Assembly: GCA_021463845.1 (NCBI GenBank)
Contig: JAJTXV010000001.1
Location: 62,001-126,000, forward strand
Length of the DNA stretch: 64,000 nt
Source: Anaerolineales bacterium
GTDB taxonomy: Bacteria > Chloroflexota > Anaerolineae > Anaerolineales > UBA11579
Direction of reading: 5' to 3'
Part shown: piece by piece, positions 3,140-45,802 of the stretch
Position numbering within the stretch: the stretch's first letter is position 1
Layout of the letters: each line of letters opens with the position of its first letter
Notes under the pieces: generated by a model
Databases searched by the model: none
What the model saw: only the letters and a program-made list of their open reading frames with translations
Told to the model about the DNA's origin: nothing
Program-made: the position numbers and the translations under genes

Positions 3140-4483
3140 ATGGCAAAAAAGAAGGCAACCCGCAAGTCCGCGGCGGCTAAAAAGCAGCCCGCCAAGAAGA
3201 CGACCAAAAAGACTGCCCCGGTAAAGGCCGCCAAGCCGCCCAAAGTCGATAAGGCCCCGGCCGCTGCGCCCAAGGGCGCCCTTGGCATCTTCCTGCAGGA
3301 GATCTCGGCCGCCCCCTGGATGGTGACGGCCCTGGCCATCATCACCGGCCTCGTGCTCGGTGGCCTCATCGTCGCCCTCACCACGGAGCAGATGTACGCC
3401 CTGTGGAGCACATCCCCAGTGGAAGGGCTGCGCGCCGGTTGGCAGGCAGCCATGAACTCCTACACTGCCTTGTTCCACGGCTCGATTGGCAATCCCACCC
3501 GCATCATCGAGGCCTTTCAAGGCGGCGACCCGGCTGCCATTCGGAGCGCCATCAACCCGTTCTTTGAAAGCCTCAACAAGTCCGTTCCCTACATCTTCGC
3601 TGGCCTCTCCGTAGCCCTCGGCTTTCGGGCTGGCCTCTTCAATATCGGCGCCGAAGGCCAGCTCTTCATGGGCGCCGCCGCCGCCGTCTACGTCGGCTTC
3701 GCCGTTACCGGCTTGCCGGCCATCATCCACATTCCGCTGGCCCTGTTGGCAGGCGCGGCGGGCGGTATGCTGTGGGGCTTCATCCCCGGCTTACTTAAAG
3801 CCAAGACCGGCGGGCATGAGGTCATCAACACCATCATGATGAACTACATTGCCTTCCGCCTGAGCGACTTTCTGTTGCGCGGCCCGCTGCAGCGGGCCGA
3901 CTCGTTCAATCCCATCAGCCCCTTCATCCTGGATAGTGCGAAACTGCCGCGTTTCTTTGAGGCGCCCATTCGCTTCCATCTTGGCTTCTTCATCGCCCTG
4001 GGCGTGGCCTTCCTGGTGTGGGTCCTGCTGTTCAAGACCCGCTGGGGCTTTGATCTGCGCACCGTCGGCGCCAATCCGGACGCGGCGCGCTACGCCGGCA
4101 TGAACATCGTCTGGGTCACCATCGCCGCCATGAGCCTGGCAGGTGGCCTGGCAGGTCTGGCCGGCGCCAACGAGGTGCTGGGCATCAACCACAACCTGGC
4201 CGCGGCCTTCTCCTCCGGCTACGGCTTCGATAGTATTGCGCTGGCCCTCTTAGGCAAGAGCCATCCGCTCGGCGTCGTCCTCGCTGCGATCTTGTTCGGC
4301 ACCTTGCGCAATGGCGCCATCCAGATGCAGCTCACCGCTGGCATACCCATTGACATCATCTCGGTGATGCAGGCCATCATTCTGGCCTTCATTGCTGCGC
4401 CAGCCATCATCCGCACCATCTTCCGCCTGCGCCAACCCAGCCATGGCGAAGAAAGCGTGCGTGTGCGCGGCTGGGGAGGTTAG
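3140..4483 (+). CDS. BMP/nucleoside ABC importer permease 1, with a Lys/Ala-rich histone-like N-terminal tail
   Basis: This is one of two membrane subunits of the importer (BPD_transp_2 family). Residues 1-47 form a strongly basic tail of K/A/P/T repeats (KKATRKSAAAKKQPAKK and similar). A first hydrophobic segment follows near 57-80, and then a multi-spanning core with the family stretch FRAGLFNIGAEGQLFMGA near residue 155. The core continues through GHEVINTIMMNYIA to the C-terminus. AGGAG lies 10 nt before the ATG, and the next in-frame Met is inside the first membrane segment, so the tail is very likely translated. Such tails are not typical of this family and resemble bacterial H1-like proteins. 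The gene is tightly linked to the ATPase before it and the second permease after it. Confidence 0.9.
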   Translation: MAKKKATRKSAAAKKQPAKKTTKKTAPVKAAKPPKVDKAPAAAPKGALGIFLQEISAAPWMVTALAIITGLVLGGLIVALTTEQMYALWSTSPVEGLRAGWQAAMNSYTALFHGSIGNPTRIIEAFQGGDPAAIRSAINPFFESLNKSVPYIFAGLSVALGFRAGLFNIGAEGQLFMGAAAAVYVGFAVTGLPAIIHIPLALLAGAAGGMLWGFIPGLLKAKTGGHEVINTIMMNYIAFRLSDFLLRGPLQRADSFNPISPFILDSAKLPRFFEAPIRFHLGFFIALGVAFLVWVLLFKTRWGFDLRTVGANPDAARYAGMNIVWVTIAAMSLAGGLAGLAGANEVLGINHNLAAAFSSGYGFDSIALALLGKSHPLGVVLAAILFGTLRNGAIQMQLTAGIPIDIISVMQAIILAFIAAPAIIRTIFRLRQPSHGEESVRVRGWGG

Positions 4484-24743: not shown

Positions 24744-24903
24744 TTTTTTCGATGCTGAATAAAAGCCGCCTGCTAACCGTAGACAATAGTACTTAGCTCC
24801 CCATAACAGCCGAAAAGTGAATCGTGTTAACATCTGCATCTGGCAAACAGTACCAAGTTTGAGGGGCACCCCCGTACGATTTGGAACCTGTAGTCTGAAA
24901 TTT

Positions 24904-24917
24904 GCAAGAAAGGAGTT
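24904..24917 (+). promoter_or_regulatory. conserved csp leader element with distant Shine-Dalgarno sequence
   Basis: GCAAGAAAGGAGTT is identical to the element before the second cold-shock gene. AGGAG ends 13 nt before the ATG in both, longer than the usual 5-9 nt. Confidence 0.6.
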
Positions 24918-24928
24918 CCAAATCCAAC

Positions 24929-25138
24929 ATGGCTGATCGTGAGCAGGGAACCGTGAAGTGGTTCAATGGCTCCAAGGGCTTCGGCTTCATCTCCCGTGAC
25001 GGCGCTGACGACGTTTTCGTCCACTACAGCTCCATTCGCGGCGATGGCTTCCGCAATTTGGAAGAGGGCCAAAAGGTGGAGTTCACCGTGGTCCAGGGCG
25101 ACAAGGGCCTCCAGGCGCAAGACGTTATCGCTCTGTAA
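24929..25138 (+). CDS. Cold-shock domain protein 1
   Basis: A 69-residue single CSD protein that binds single-stranded RNA/DNA and acts as an RNA chaperone. RNP1 is KGFGFISRD (residues 16-24) and RNP2 is DVFVHYS (about 29-35), with the N-terminal [13 protein letters not shown]. The ATG at 24929 was chosen because [12 protein letters not shown] aligns with the paralogue [12 protein letters not shown]; an ATG nine codons earlier would overlap the ribosome-binding region. A long leader precedes it, as is usual for csp genes. One Tyr replaces the more usual Phe in RNP2 (VHYS). Confidence 0.93.
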
Positions 25139-28040: not shown

Positions 28041-28253
28041 ATGGCAGAACGCATTCAAGGCACCGTGAAGTGGTTCAATGGCACCAAGGGCTTCGGTTTC
28101 ATCACCCGTGAGGGTGGCCCGGACGTCTTCGTCCACTTCAGCGCCATCAGCGGCGAAGGCTTCCGTAACCTGGAAGAGGGTCAGAAGGTGGAATTCACCG
28201 TCACCCAGGGCCAGAAAGGCCCCCAGGCTCAGGACGTCGTCGTCGTCGGCTAG
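28041..28253 (+). CDS. Cold-shock domain protein 2
   Basis: A 70-residue CSD protein, about 80 percent identical by eye to cold-shock protein 1. RNP1 is KGFGFITRE and RNP2 is DVFVHFSAI, with canonical Phe. It starts [19 protein letters not shown]. It has a long upstream leader, a Shine-Dalgarno sequence at unusual distance shared with its paralogue, and its own terminator. Likely role: RNA chaperone, possibly induced by cold or constitutive. Confidence 0.93.
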
Positions 28254-28576: not shown

Positions 28577-28826
28577 GTCATCCTCCTGGGTAGTGGGTTG
28601 TACTCACCACAACGAGCTATCCGCCCAACCTGTGCCTCGCCGAATGCGGGGCAACAAAACTGAGAGGTACTCCTGGGCTCGTCACCGAAGCGCGGAGTTG
28701 CGGCACGCTGCGCAGCAGCCTTTTTTTTGATGAGGCGGTCGAATCGCCAAAGCATTCTGCTAGCAACACCTATTGCTCAAATGTAGTGGCTAATGTTACG
28801 CTTGTATCAATTGCGGGATTTTAGCT

Positions 28827-29882
28827 ATGATGACTACTTTTATACAAACTGAGGATTCTGACACGGAACAGTGGAGAATTCTAGGACAGTTCTCTTACCC
28901 TGCAAATATACACAGGCATTTTGTCCAAAATGGGATTTCAGAGCCGCCAGATGGACTAGTTGAGTTTATCTCAGCTGCACTATCGCAAGCGCAAGAATAC
29001 TTTTCTGTTGCTCGAAATGCCCAGTTAACAATCTCTCCCCTTCTATATTATTACGGTGCTTCTAATCTACTATGTGGAGTGGGAGCACTTTTGAGTGGTT
29101 TCCAACTACCTATTGAACATCATGGCATGCTGGCTGAAATGCCTTCACGGAATAATAACCAAATTGCAGACTTGGTCATAAAGCCTGTGAATCCGCAGAA
29201 TGGGGCATTGCAATTGTTGGCAAATGTCTTTTCTCATGAGCCGGAAATAGTGAATGGGGGAGCCTGGGATTTCGGGGAAATTTTAGGATCGATTCCAGAC
29301 CTAAGGTCTGAATACGAACAGATGTATGTGGATCGAAGGCCATATACTTTACCAGTTGAGGTTTTAAAAACTAGACGCGGGGAAGTAGAGCGCATAGCGT
29401 TGATTCACACCACTAGATTGCGTGATGTCCCTGGCACTCTAAAGCAGATAAAGGACTTCCAAAAGGCTTATCTGGAGCCACAGATTAAAGACCACTTCGT
29501 TTTCCTGCGTAAGAAACTCCGTGACCATGAAATTGGCGAAAGATCAATTTTTGGCGGAAAACATCTGCAATTAACGCACGAAAAGAATGGAAGACAATTT
29601 GCTCCCAGTCAGATAATACTGATGTTTATGGGGTTATTCGGATTGGGATTTGTATCACGTTATAGGCCGGAAATTTGGAATAGATTTGTTACAAGGGATG
29701 AGACTGGCGAGCGCCAATTGATTCTGAAATTTATTGATACTTGTCATCGATTCCTTCCTAATTTAGCATTGAATAGGATTCGCGGAGAGATAGTTCAATT
29801 TGTAAACAGGATTGACCAGCCAACTGATTTACGCACGTCACTTACTGATGACGATATCAAAAAGCTTGAGCGATTGGGGTAA
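28827..29882 (+). CDS. YaaC-like protein (first gene of an A+T-rich two-gene cassette)
   Basis: A 351-residue soluble protein. The stretch AQLTISPLLYYYGASNLLCG (residues 65-84) and a later MGLFGLGFVSRYRPEIWNRF resemble YaaC-type proteins (PF14175), in which a helical region with a Tyr-rich turn and an RYxPxxW motif recur. Function of that family is unknown. Base composition is clearly A+T-rich compared with the flanking genes, and codon use follows. No Shine-Dalgarno sequence is obvious before the double ATG. The second gene follows after 3 nt, so the two are one operon. Horizontal transfer is likely. Defence or stress roles are possible from the island-like setting but nothing in the sequence proves it. 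Confidence 0.7.
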   Translation: MMTTFIQTEDSDTEQWRILGQFSYPANIHRHFVQNGISEPPDGLVEFISAALSQAQEYFSVARNAQLTISPLLYYYGASNLLCGVGALLSGFQLPIEHHGMLAEMPSRNNNQIADLVIKPVNPQNGALQLLANVFSHEPEIVNGGAWDFGEILGSIPDLRSEYEQMYVDRRPYTLPVEVLKTRRGEVERIALIHTTRLRDVPGTLKQIKDFQKAYLEPQIKDHFVFLRKKLRDHEIGERSIFGGKHLQLTHEKNGRQFAPSQIILMFMGLFGLGFVSRYRPEIWNRFVTRDETGERQLILKFIDTCHRFLPNLALNRIRGEIVQFVNRIDQPTDLRTSLTDDDIKKLERLG

Positions 29883-29885
29883 CAA

Positions 29886-30842
29886 GTGAGTATATTAGAA
29901 ACTGCATATCTTCTTGCGAAAAGTGTGACAAAGACGCCTAGAAGAGATGAGCTTTTTAGGCTGATATCTGGACTCGATCAAACTAACTTTGGTTATGCGG
30001 CGCGGCATCAGTATTATCAGTTGGCAGGCTATTTAATTGTTGATAAAAACCAATCGGAAATTGGAGAGAAAACAGGTTTCAACGTGCATAAGATTAGACA
30101 GGAAGAGCTGCAATTAATTTCCAGCTTCCATGCCCAGTTAGCCGTAATGAGTAAGCAATGTGTTTCTACCTTACTAGTTTATAACCCCAATCTTTGGGGA
30201 GTTGTTAATCCATATGAATTAGCGGAACTAGAAGAACCATTGCTGAATGACGTTCGGTTTGATGAAGGCATCGTCCACAGTCTCCGCGAGGCATTTAGTC
30301 AGCATCCGAGTATCCAAGCTCTTATAAGCGAACCCATAAGGGATTTTGATCCTTTGCAATTGAGAAAGCAGGTTGCCTCCTTCGAGAAATCTATTTTTAG
30401 CCAGGATGAACCTCCTGAAGCTTTAAAGAGATTAATCTTCGCTTCCGGCAAGAAGAGTGAGGAGAGGAGAGCTCTAAGATTCCTTGCTAATCTAGCCGTT
30501 TTGCGAGCCTCTCTGACTATGTTGAATCAGTTGATTTTTCAAGCACTAATAAGTAATAAGCTCGTAGCTTTTGACGAAGACTTGATTATCGAACTTCGTC
30601 AACATAGTAACATTTCTGGCCACTTGTTCGAGCTGCTCGCTCTCATGAACGGTCATTCGTTTAGAGTAGAAGTTAATGATCTTGTTCTTTTAGTTGCTCT
30701 AGATAATCAGCCTTCGCAGTTAGCATGGGTCCAGTCGAGTTCTTTTCAGATGTCACAGGAAACCGGAGATACCGTTTTACTTGATCTAAGAAAGCTTGAT
30801 GATCATTTGAGCCTATTTGGCTCCCTGCAAACGCTAGCCTAA
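29886..30842 (+). CDS. Unknown all-helical protein (second gene of the cassette)
   Basis: A 318-residue protein with no family I recognise. It starts at GTG, 3 nt after the YaaC-like stop, with GGGG six bases before. The residues suggest helix throughout: Leu- and Gln/Glu-rich stretches, no signal peptide, no membrane segment, no Walker, nuclease or zinc motif seen. Landmarks are YQLAGYLIVDKNQSEIGEKT near 46-65, LLVYNPNLWGVVNP near 96-110, and a C-terminal segment beginning SGHLFELLALMNGHSFRVEV. It shares the A+T-rich composition of the first gene and stands with it alone between a cold-shock locus and the ileS T-box, so the two products probably act together. Confidence 0.65.
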   Translation: MSILETAYLLAKSVTKTPRRDELFRLISGLDQTNFGYAARHQYYQLAGYLIVDKNQSEIGEKTGFNVHKIRQEELQLISSFHAQLAVMSKQCVSTLLVYNPNLWGVVNPYELAELEEPLLNDVRFDEGIVHSLREAFSQHPSIQALISEPIRDFDPLQLRKQVASFEKSIFSQDEPPEALKRLIFASGKKSEERRALRFLANLAVLRASLTMLNQLIFQALISNKLVAFDEDLIIELRQHSNISGHLFELLALMNGHSFRVEVNDLVLLVALDNQPSQLAWVQSSSFQMSQETGDTVLLDLRKLDDHLSLFGSLQTLA

Positions 30843-31018
30843 CAGTAGTTGCCCCAAATTTCTATGCATGTTTTCTTCTGTACCTTATATCTTGGCACGC
30901 CTCGTGCCGCTGCCAGCGAGCTACGCGGCACAAAAGCGGCGCTGCTAATGGAGTTGCTGCCTTGCTGGCGCAAGGCTTATGCAGCTCCTCCTCTTGCCGT
31001 CCACTCTATGGCATAATC
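30843..31018. other. gap before the ileS T-box; no gene seen
   Basis: Only a foldback GCCGCTGCCAGCG...CGCGGC near 30910-30930, which may end the cassette transcript, and a CATAAT -10-like hexamer at 31012-31017 that could start the T-box RNA. No coding frame of note. Confidence 0.4.
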
Positions 31019-31314
31019 ATCCCAGAGACGAGTACGCCAACAACCAAACCCTTCTAGCGAGCCTGGGCCGGTGTGAGCCAGGTGGTGTGGCTGGCCGAAC
31101 ATCCCTCTGTTGTACGCAAGCTGAACGCTGATAGCTGACCACTATCAGCTACTAAGTGCGCCGGGCTTGTATCCCGTTACCACTGCGAGGCCAGGCAGCC
31201 GCTTTCAGCCGCTGCCGGCCACTAAGTGCCGGCCTCGCGCCGGAACATGGGTGGTACCGCGGGCTAGCTCCCGTCCCATGTGTTGCCAAGCAACACATGG
31301 GACGGGAGCTTTTT
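31019..31314 (+). ncRNA. T-box riboswitch, isoleucine-specific (ileS leader)
   Basis: A tRNA-sensing leader that lets transcription continue when uncharged tRNA-Ile is abundant. The S-turn signal AGAGACGAGTACG starts stem I, with a distal loop CCGGTGTGAGCC. The specifier loop reads GAAC-ATC, an Ile codon at 31101-31103. Helices for stems II/III (CTGATAG/CTATCAG; GAGGCC.../...GGCCTC) follow. The T-box sequence TGGGTGGTACCGCGG lies at about 31249-31263; its UGGU bulge would pair with the ACCA end of a tRNA with discriminator A, as tRNA-Ile has. A terminator hairpin competes with it. The downstream gene is ileS, which confirms the amino acid. Confidence 0.92.
31266..31314 (+). terminator. conditional terminator of the ileS T-box
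   Basis: A perfect 20-bp stem, AGCTCCCGTCCCATGTGTTG with loop CCAAG, then TTTTT. Its left arm overlaps the antiterminator partner, the standard T-box arrangement. Confidence 0.92.
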
Positions 31315-43648: not shown

Positions 43649-45802
43649 ATGAAAAGGCTTTTTTCTGAAGCGTTACATAAGATTGAGCTGGTTTTGAGCA
43701 ATAGGACTGTCCTGGTATTTATCCTTTGGGCGCTGCTATTGTCTTTTGAATACTTGGCTTTTGGAGTGCAATCTTATGTAAAGATCCATGACAACGCCGA
43801 CGTAACCCTGCCACTAAAGCTGGCCAATGTTTTGAGTAATCCTTGGTCATTCAGCAGCTGGGATCCACACCAGCTGGGAGGAACAGACAAGCTTACTGAA
43901 GTTGGTAGTTTTGATTTGCTCAATTTCTTCTTTTATGTGCTTCCCGGCTGGCTTGCATACGGCTCAGTAATTCTGCTCCAAAGATTTGTAGCTGGGTACT
44001 TTACTTTTCGATTGCTTACCCGGCATTTGCACATTCGACCGATATTTGCACTCTTGCCTTCGTTGATCTACTCAATGTTCTCTCAACAGGGCATCAATCT
44101 TCAGTTTGATGGCTTTACGTTATACGATTCGCTCGGGTTACCCGCCGTACCTGCCGTTCTCTTCTTTCTTGGAGAGCTAACGGTCAAGCCCACCCAATCT
44201 TGGCGGACGCTGCTTGCTTCTGCCGCCCTAGGGTTTTTTTACTCTAGTGTTTCCTTTTATGCATATTCAATATTCCTGATCCCGCTGTTGGTGTTGTGGT
44301 TATTCTTTCTAAAGGCGGGAAAGAATCGGCCGGCAATACTTTTGGCATTTTTACTAGGGTGGTTTGCATTGGAGGCAATTGAAATTGTCGCTGCCTTAAA
44401 TTACTCAGCATTTTCACATCGTGTGAATACTAGTTATTGCACCGACATTGGTCTATGGAACGGTCTGACACGGGCGACTCAAAGGCAGTTTTTGTCAGGA
44501 ACGAATTTGCTGCCGTTCCTGGTTGGATCTATCGGGGCCGCGCTGAGCCTGCAAAGGTCTGATGATCGCAGGCCGCTTCTTGTTTTCATCTTGGCTGTCG
44601 GATTTGCTTTTGCCAGTGTGTTGCTTCCCGCCTTTTTTTGTTCCGATCTGAATCCTTTAGCCTTTCTCAGAGGCTTTAACTCTGGTCGATTTTTTCTGTA
44701 TTCGCCGTTCTTGACGGTTGTCCTGCTAGGCCTTTCTCTACAGAAGATAGATTGGTGGTTGCGCAACAGACCTGGATTTCCTCAGTTTTTGACCTATTTG
44801 CTGGTGGGGCTACTGTTTTTGAATGTGGCAAGTCAGGTAGTTTCAGTGAAACAGGCTACCTTGTCAGCAAGGTTAAACGGAAGCAACTATGCAAATCTGT
44901 TTGAGAATCCATACCTCGATTATTTGAGTACTTTGACGTCCGCGCATACTGAACCAGTGCGAACAGTGCTGCTGTATGAACATGAAAGTCAATACAACCC
45001 GGGCTATTTCTGGGCCTATGGGATTTCCACCCTTGATGGATATGGAAACATGTACCCTTCTTGGCTGGGCGAATTTTGGCGAGCGGTGCTTGATCCAATG
45101 ATGATTCGCTACCCTGAATGCAGGTATGGCATTCGTCTTGCCCTCGGTGAAACCAGGCTTTACTTGTCTAATGGCTGTGACGTTGGGGAACAAGTTGATC
45201 TATCAAAGCCGGCTGAGTTGTTTAACTTTAATCTTCTTAGTCTTGCAAGTGTTAGATACGTTTTGAGTGCTCAGCCGTTGCAAGATAGAGGGAGCCTTCA
45301 GGAGATAGACACGTCTGGAATTAACTGCCCAGCGGGGTGTCTGCGCTACTACATCTATGAAAATCCAGCGGCCGCCAGTTTTCTGACCGCATACTCAGAA
45401 ATTAGCCAAAGACCGAGTGAAGAGGATGTTCTAGAAGCTCTTCGTCTCTTGGATTTGGTGCCAGATGCGGTGCTCATTGATGCTCCCCAGCTTAGTGGAT
45501 TGCCAGTACAAGACCTGGGGGGTTCTGCTTCAACAATAAATCTGCTGGATTCTGATAATGATCAAGTGATTTTTCGGTTTAGCAGCCTAGATGCGAAGAT
45601 AGTTGTCTTGAATTCTACTTACACCCCCGACTGGAAGGTGTTTATAGATGGGGTTGAGACCAGAGTCTTGCGCGCAAATTACATTTTTAAAGCCGTTTAT
45701 GTGCCTGCGGGAGAACACTTGATTGAATTTGTGTATGCCCCTCCATATTCGTATAGGCGAATTTTGATAGAAAGCGAGATCTACTCAAATGAGATACCCT
45801 GA
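43649..45802 (+). CDS. YfhO-like multi-spanning membrane protein
   Basis: A 717-residue protein with about 12 hydrophobic segments to residue 400, then a soluble domain. The first outer loop includes KIHDNADVTLPLKLANVLS and SWDPHQLGGTDKLTEVGS. The C-terminal end carries YTPDWKVFIDGVETRVLRAN and VYVPAGEHLIEFVYAPP, close to the conserved end of YfhO proteins (for example WxxxVDGxE and VPAGxHxVxF). YfhO-type proteins are linked to lipoteichoic acid or glycan glycosylation. Base composition is clearly A+T-rich compared with both neighbours, suggesting acquired DNA. It begins a run of sugar- and methyl-transfer genes. Confidence 0.72.
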   Translation: MKRLFSEALHKIELVLSNRTVLVFILWALLLSFEYLAFGVQSYVKIHDNADVTLPLKLANVLSNPWSFSSWDPHQLGGTDKLTEVGSFDLLNFFFYVLPGWLAYGSVILLQRFVAGYFTFRLLTRHLHIRPIFALLPSLIYSMFSQQGINLQFDGFTLYDSLGLPAVPAVLFFLGELTVKPTQSWRTLLASAALGFFYSSVSFYAYSIFLIPLLVLWLFFLKAGKNRPAILLAFLLGWFALEAIEIVAALNYSAFSHRVNTSYCTDIGLWNGLTRATQRQFLSGTNLLPFLVGSIGAALSLQRSDDRRPLLVFILAVGFAFASVLLPAFFCSDLNPLAFLRGFNSGRFFLYSPFLTVVLLGLSLQKIDWWLRNRPGFPQFLTYLLVGLLFLNVASQVVSVKQATLSARLNGSNYANLFENPYLDYLSTLTSAHTEPVRTVLLYEHESQYNPGYFWAYGISTLDGYGNMYPSWLGEFWRAVLDPMMIRYPECRYGIRLALGETRLYLSNGCDVGEQVDLSKPAELFNFNLLSLASVRYVLSAQPLQDRGSLQEIDTSGINCPAGCLRYYIYENPAAASFLTAYSEISQRPSEEDVLEALRLLDLVPDAVLIDAPQLSGLPVQDLGGSASTINLLDSDNDQVIFRFSSLDAKIVVLNSTYTPDWKVFIDGVETRVLRANYIFKAVYVPAGEHLIEFVYAPPYSYRRILIESEIYSNEIP

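Follow-up and report, generated by a model that had tools for sequence, protein, structure and literature searches.

The YaaC family (PF14175) has, to our knowledge, no established function. In Bacillus, YaaC is a solo, chromosomal gene. Literature searches on YaaC function, on YaaC with HEPN and on DACNV returned nothing usable, and terms for the YaaC family were absent from the open library searched. A 64-kb stretch of a 2.3 Mb Chloroflexota genome (G000), referred to here as the window, encodes a protein that lies far above the family cut-off and carries the family's YYG, HG and RYxPxxW features. It differs from most other members examined in having a partner gene directly behind it, and its subfamily adds a WNxFVxxDETGE element.

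Three groups of conflict systems offer the closest points of comparison. DACNV/SEFIR operons have a predicted immune role; an operon of this type is, like the window pair, a low-GC two-gene unit, and in one genome (G733) it occupies the same slot before a DTD gene, bounded by the same repeat, as a copy of the pair in a congener (G563). However, it has no family in common with YaaC or the partner. MqsRA loci are represented by an MqsA-like gene in the same csp-ileS interval of two relatives (G007 and G008), but their proteins are unrelated to the pair and differ in size. LA2681 is among the HEPN conflict families, with a conserved Rx4-6H motif and fusions to TPR (PMC3710099). An LA2681-type HEPN protein is encoded in the same slot in another relative (G001), a YaaC relative on a Methylorubrum plasmid has an Abi_2 gene in front of it, and the N-terminal half of YaaC shows a weak alignment with HEPN whose register is plausible, but Rx4-6H is conserved in neither protein of the pair. 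The pair, which matches no catalogued defence system, is most suitably classed as a mobile two-gene cassette of conflict type, and its partner family is new.

The gene pair between csp and ileS

The pair lies on the forward strand between two conserved flanks: the cold-shock gene csp (28041-28253, + strand) on the left and the T-box leader of ileS (31010-31281, + strand) on the right. The T-box leader matches Rfam RF00230 with 68.7 bits and an E-value of 6e-14, under the gathering score of 93, and a cspA thermoregulator match at the csp flank (E = 2e-13) is likewise under the Rfam gathering score. In the ORF list, yaaC (28827-29882) starts with ATG and encodes 351 aa, whereas the partner gene (29886-30842) starts with GTG behind a GGGG-type ribosome site and encodes 318 aa. 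The 3-nt gap between them and the GTG start agree with the coordinates of an earlier note on this DNA, which had described an A+T-rich two-gene stretch here; the A+T-rich stretch itself begins at about 28720 and not at 28690 as claimed.

The composition of the pair sets it apart from its surroundings. Its GC content is 0.42, while 2-kb windows across the whole 64 kb have a mean of 0.606 (sd 0.042) and reach their minimum, 0.418, at the position of the pair. Third-position GC is 0.38-0.39 in the pair, whereas csp has 0.79 and ileS 0.84. Comparison with the empty sites of G007 and G008, BLAST synteny and the drop in GC together place the inserted A+T-rich module at 28675-30970, with edges that are approximate to within a few tens of bases. 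A possible intrinsic terminator on the + strand, a GC stem followed by T8 that matches the consensus in a pattern scan, lies at the module's left edge (28697-28727). Elsewhere in the window (43649-45802), a further A+T-rich gene (GC 0.46, 717 aa) stands ahead of a glycosyltransferase-like gene.

A second copy of the pair, in a genome of the same genus (G005), permits a test of coding status. Between the two copies, YaaC is 60% and the partner 42-43% identical, both alignable end to end, with pS of 0.83 and 0.79 and pN of 0.26 and 0.37 for yaaC and the partner, respectively. Because the proteins align along their whole length while synonymous sites are saturated, both are real coding genes, and the pair is under purifying selection.

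The first protein is a member of the YaaC family, as the earlier note had supposed from its likeness: Pfam PF14175 is matched over residues 50-318 with an E-value of 7.4e-29 and 101.6 bits, compared with a curated cut-off of 27. An alignment of 17 members shows that the family-wide YYG, HG and RYxPxxW features are kept, and the window's subfamily is marked by RYxPExWNxFVxxDETGE. Its relatives encoded with the partner are 60% (G005), 45% (G563) and 34% (G938) identical, and the invariant candidate residues are H99-G100, R278-Y279, E282 and D291-E295. The window's genome also carries a second YaaC-family gene at the end of another contig (C16, locus L028, 11184-12218), 22% identical to the first, with a GC of 0.44 in surroundings of 0.65; its downstream sequence lies beyond the contig end.

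The partner matches nothing in Pfam, NCBIfam, PHROGs or PADLOC, and a profile of its relatives found no credible match among PDB sequences, in line with the earlier description of a product without recognisable motif. The same searches dispose of the idea that it is a fragment of a housekeeping protein. Its relatives are 43% (G005), 29% (G563) and 25% (G938) identical, with invariant candidate residues F35-G36-Y37, A39-R40, Q42, Q45, R207, Q215-L216 and Q219-A220. AlphaFold2 runs from two-row alignments, which comprised the window and related-locus sequences only, gave pLDDT values of 44.6 and 30.7 for the two proteins and unusable models. The partner is thus far predicted, by a low-confidence model, to be a mostly helical protein of a new family.

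The N-terminal helices of YaaC fall in a suggestive register with HEPN domains, but the profile comparison is without significance. The hhalign score was 23.1 with a probability of 4.3%, far below significance, and a larger YaaC alignment scored only 17.8. Shuffled alignments reached 23.1 in none of 120 cases with blocks of 4 and in 3 of 120 with blocks of 12. No R..H spacing of 4-6 is conserved across copies of YaaC or the partner as the Rx4-6H RNase motif would require; no catalytic motif is conserved in either protein, as the earlier note had also judged by eye.

Distribution, pairing and movement

Among the Chloroflexota genomes searched, the partner was found in four (G000, G005, G563 and G938), which represent three genera and two classes, and in all four a yaaC of the window's subfamily stands immediately before it. 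In G000 and G005 the two genes are separated by 3 nt; in G938 they abut with no gap (0 nt), and in G563 they overlap by 4 nt. Within the window's genus, 2 of 11 genomes carry the partner, and the YaaC model matches the same two; YaaC matches are rare across the class (1 of 298) and the phylum (7 of 400). With the partner profile, the order to which G563 belongs yielded one copy, and its class yielded one more, that of G938. A scan of genome contigs with the YaaC subfamily matched the G563 copy alone, and one with the partner matched none; no copy of the pair was found in viral contigs, phages or plasmids. Pairing is known from four pairs only, and most other readable YaaC genes of the phylum have no partner.

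Low GC is common to all four copies relative to their surroundings: 0.40-0.42 in the window's genus with flanks of about 0.6, 0.41 in G563 with flanks of 0.50-0.56, and 0.54-0.56 in G938, where most neighbouring genes are at 0.66-0.72. The other YaaC genes of the phylum are mostly low in GC too (0.37-0.44 in surroundings of 0.49-0.65), with the exceptions of loci L043-L045.

The copies occupy three chromosomal settings: the csp/ileS site, the position before a DTD gene in G563, and a position 180 nt from a tRNA-Val gene in G938. In G007 and G008, which lack the module, the common flanks align about 95 nt apart compared with about 2.3 kb in the window. In G563, the pair and a third gene are bracketed by two copies of a 62-nt repeat, and the corresponding site of G742 is empty with one repeat copy. 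The third gene (locus L042, 7260-8174, 304 aa) has no counterpart in the other three copies and no family above cut-off, and is therefore treated as lying outside the system.

The G005 pair stands at the same csp/ileS site as the window's, with a different left spacer. Between G000 and G005, ileS has a dS of 0.34 and a dN of 0.012, whereas yaaC and the partner have dN values of 0.32 and 0.51 and are both saturated at synonymous sites. The two copies of the pair must therefore have split long before their hosts, and each came to this one site, by arrival or by exchange, independently of the other. These observations bear directly on the possibility that the pair is a vertically inherited, fast-evolving and lineage-specific unit lost in other relatives. 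Its presence at the same place in two genomes of the genus would fit such a history, but the synonymous saturation of the pair beside a dS of 0.34 in the adjoining ileS contradicts it, as do the foreign GC and the relatives at different sites in another class, and it is considered very improbable. The pair is instead mobile and of foreign composition. The earlier note had called it a foreign-looking cassette, and low GC relative to the flanks, sporadic presence and empty sites in relatives all bear this out; a pair present in every relative with normal composition would have looked different from the 2 of 11 genomes and GC of 0.42 found here.

Several features of the insertion sites are recorded alongside. 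Just left of the G005 pair (locus L020, about 4231-4296), the spacer contains part of the 3' end of csp, an apparent scar that suggests the use of csp sequence in a recombination event. Cross-matches to relatives revealed a second csp-like copy in the window (24903-25125), about 3 kb upstream of csp (28041-28253) and about 80% identical to it in DNA; such a duplication of csp could supply material for recombination at the csp/ileS site.

A 60-62-nt imperfect palindrome, TCCAGGGACACCATACCAATTAGGCCTACTACAAATTAGGTATTATGTCCCCAGAATACC, clusters between gene cassettes that are about 0.7-3 kb long, in one orientation per cluster, at loci L109, L110, L111, L114, L116 and L042 (in the G748, G563 and G733 genomes). 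It is present in 5-20 copies per genome, compared with 0 for a reversed-pattern control. Some of the cassettes that it bounds appear by eye to encode HEPN, ImmA/IrrE or DUF262 proteins and one encodes a SEFIR protein by Pfam, while others are metabolic. The arrangement is reminiscent of cassettes arrayed between recombination sites, although the palindrome has no obvious attC core.

Other occupants of the slots

The sites that hold the pair hold other genes in related genomes. In G001, the csp-ileS slot contains a low-GC gene for a TPR and HEPN_LA2681 protein (PF18733, E = 1.5e-37) with its RNVLTH motif intact; in G007 and G008, the interval contains an MqsA-type antitoxin gene; and in G002, it contains two genes of 777 and 301 aa that are not defence-like by Pfam. 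The DTD slot of G733 holds low-GC DACNV/DAC (2e-17) and SEFIR/TIR (1e-17) genes between copies of the G563 repeat, and that of G737 holds an HTH and M78 peptidase pair. The slots of the pair are thus exchanged with immunity-type genes.

On plasmids, YaaC relatives lie near Abi_2, ABC-3C, SIR2, SymE and DUF4231/SLATT genes, an association that has no matched control; ends of plasmids are in any case rich in genes of this sort. The hypothetical genes adjoining these plasmid YaaC loci include no relatives of the partner. On the Methylorubrum populi plasmid pMPPM03 (locus L100, 7685-9614), 58 nt separate a YaaC-like gene from an upstream Abi_2 gene with an RNRVAH motif, which may be a second pairing that involves YaaC. 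In G491 (locus L043, 5454-7045), a 155-aa ORF with RNAFEH stands directly upstream of a YaaC gene, near an integrase-like gene.

A survey of genomes of the kind proposed in the earlier note thus found conserved pairing in scattered taxa, with defence-type neighbours.

Function of the pair

The pair constitutes a horizontally mobile operon whose two genes appear translationally coupled. Given the tight coupling and the strict co-occurrence, the subfamily-specific YaaC and its mostly helical partner would work jointly, probably in a single complex. That the slots are exchanged with immunity genes suggests a role in defence or a related conflict; the module would be an anti-phage (abortive-infection-like) or toxin-antitoxin-like unit carried in exchangeable cargo slots. 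If it causes growth arrest, it would do so by chemistry other than that of an Rx4-6H RNase or as a non-enzymatic binder, because Rx4-6H is absent from both proteins.

The pair shows the traits expected of defence genes in being sporadic, mobile and located in slots common to other immunity genes. PADLOC models matched neither YaaC nor the partner at E ≤ 1, and none matched the relatives scanned at E ≤ 0.1; PHROGs and NCBIfam likewise gave no match to either of the two proteins. The toxin-antitoxin or phage-defence hypothesis of the earlier note accordingly gains from slots common to HEPN_LA2681 and DACNV/SEFIR genes, by association only, and finds no match in any known defence-system model.

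A classical two-gene toxin-antitoxin system, in which one protein would arrest growth unless counteracted by the other and the pair is kept by addiction and not by phage defence, would account for a compact, coupled, mobile and sporadic pair and sits well with the MqsA-type gene in the same interval of G007 and G008. It is nonetheless an unlikely reading: at 351 and 318 aa, both genes are longer than those of most type II toxin-antitoxin pairs, no toxin or antitoxin family is matched in Pfam, PADLOC, NCBIfam or PHROGs, and most YaaC relatives occur without this partner, which suggests that YaaC needs none as an antidote. Fairly unlikely too is a mobile cassette outside any conflict, with an accessory role connected with stress, nucleotides or regulation, carried in a cargo slot of general use. 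The 777- and 301-aa genes of the G002 slot are not obviously defensive, repeat-delimited arrays in the G563 genus hold metabolic genes as well, and the solo chromosomal YaaC of Bacillus would fit a role of this kind, but immunity-type co-occupants recur at two independent sites and YaaC occurs on plasmids beside defence-type neighbours.

By association, the module is with somewhat better than even confidence a coupled mobile operon whose most likely role is defence or a related conflict, and on the same associative grounds the pair is a good candidate for a new system of anti-phage or toxin-antitoxin type. A broader proposal, for which the chances seem rather below even, is that YaaC proteins are a widespread but so far unrecognised component of bacterial immune modules with interchangeable partners, namely the new helical family here and Abi_2/HEPN-like proteins elsewhere, and that the present pair is the first defined two-gene type. 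The partner represents a protein family covered by no library searched. YaaC is annotated across bacteria, and its fixed partner, low-GC mobile copies and slot exchange with HEPN and SEFIR genes give it a testable role in conflict with phages or mobile elements.
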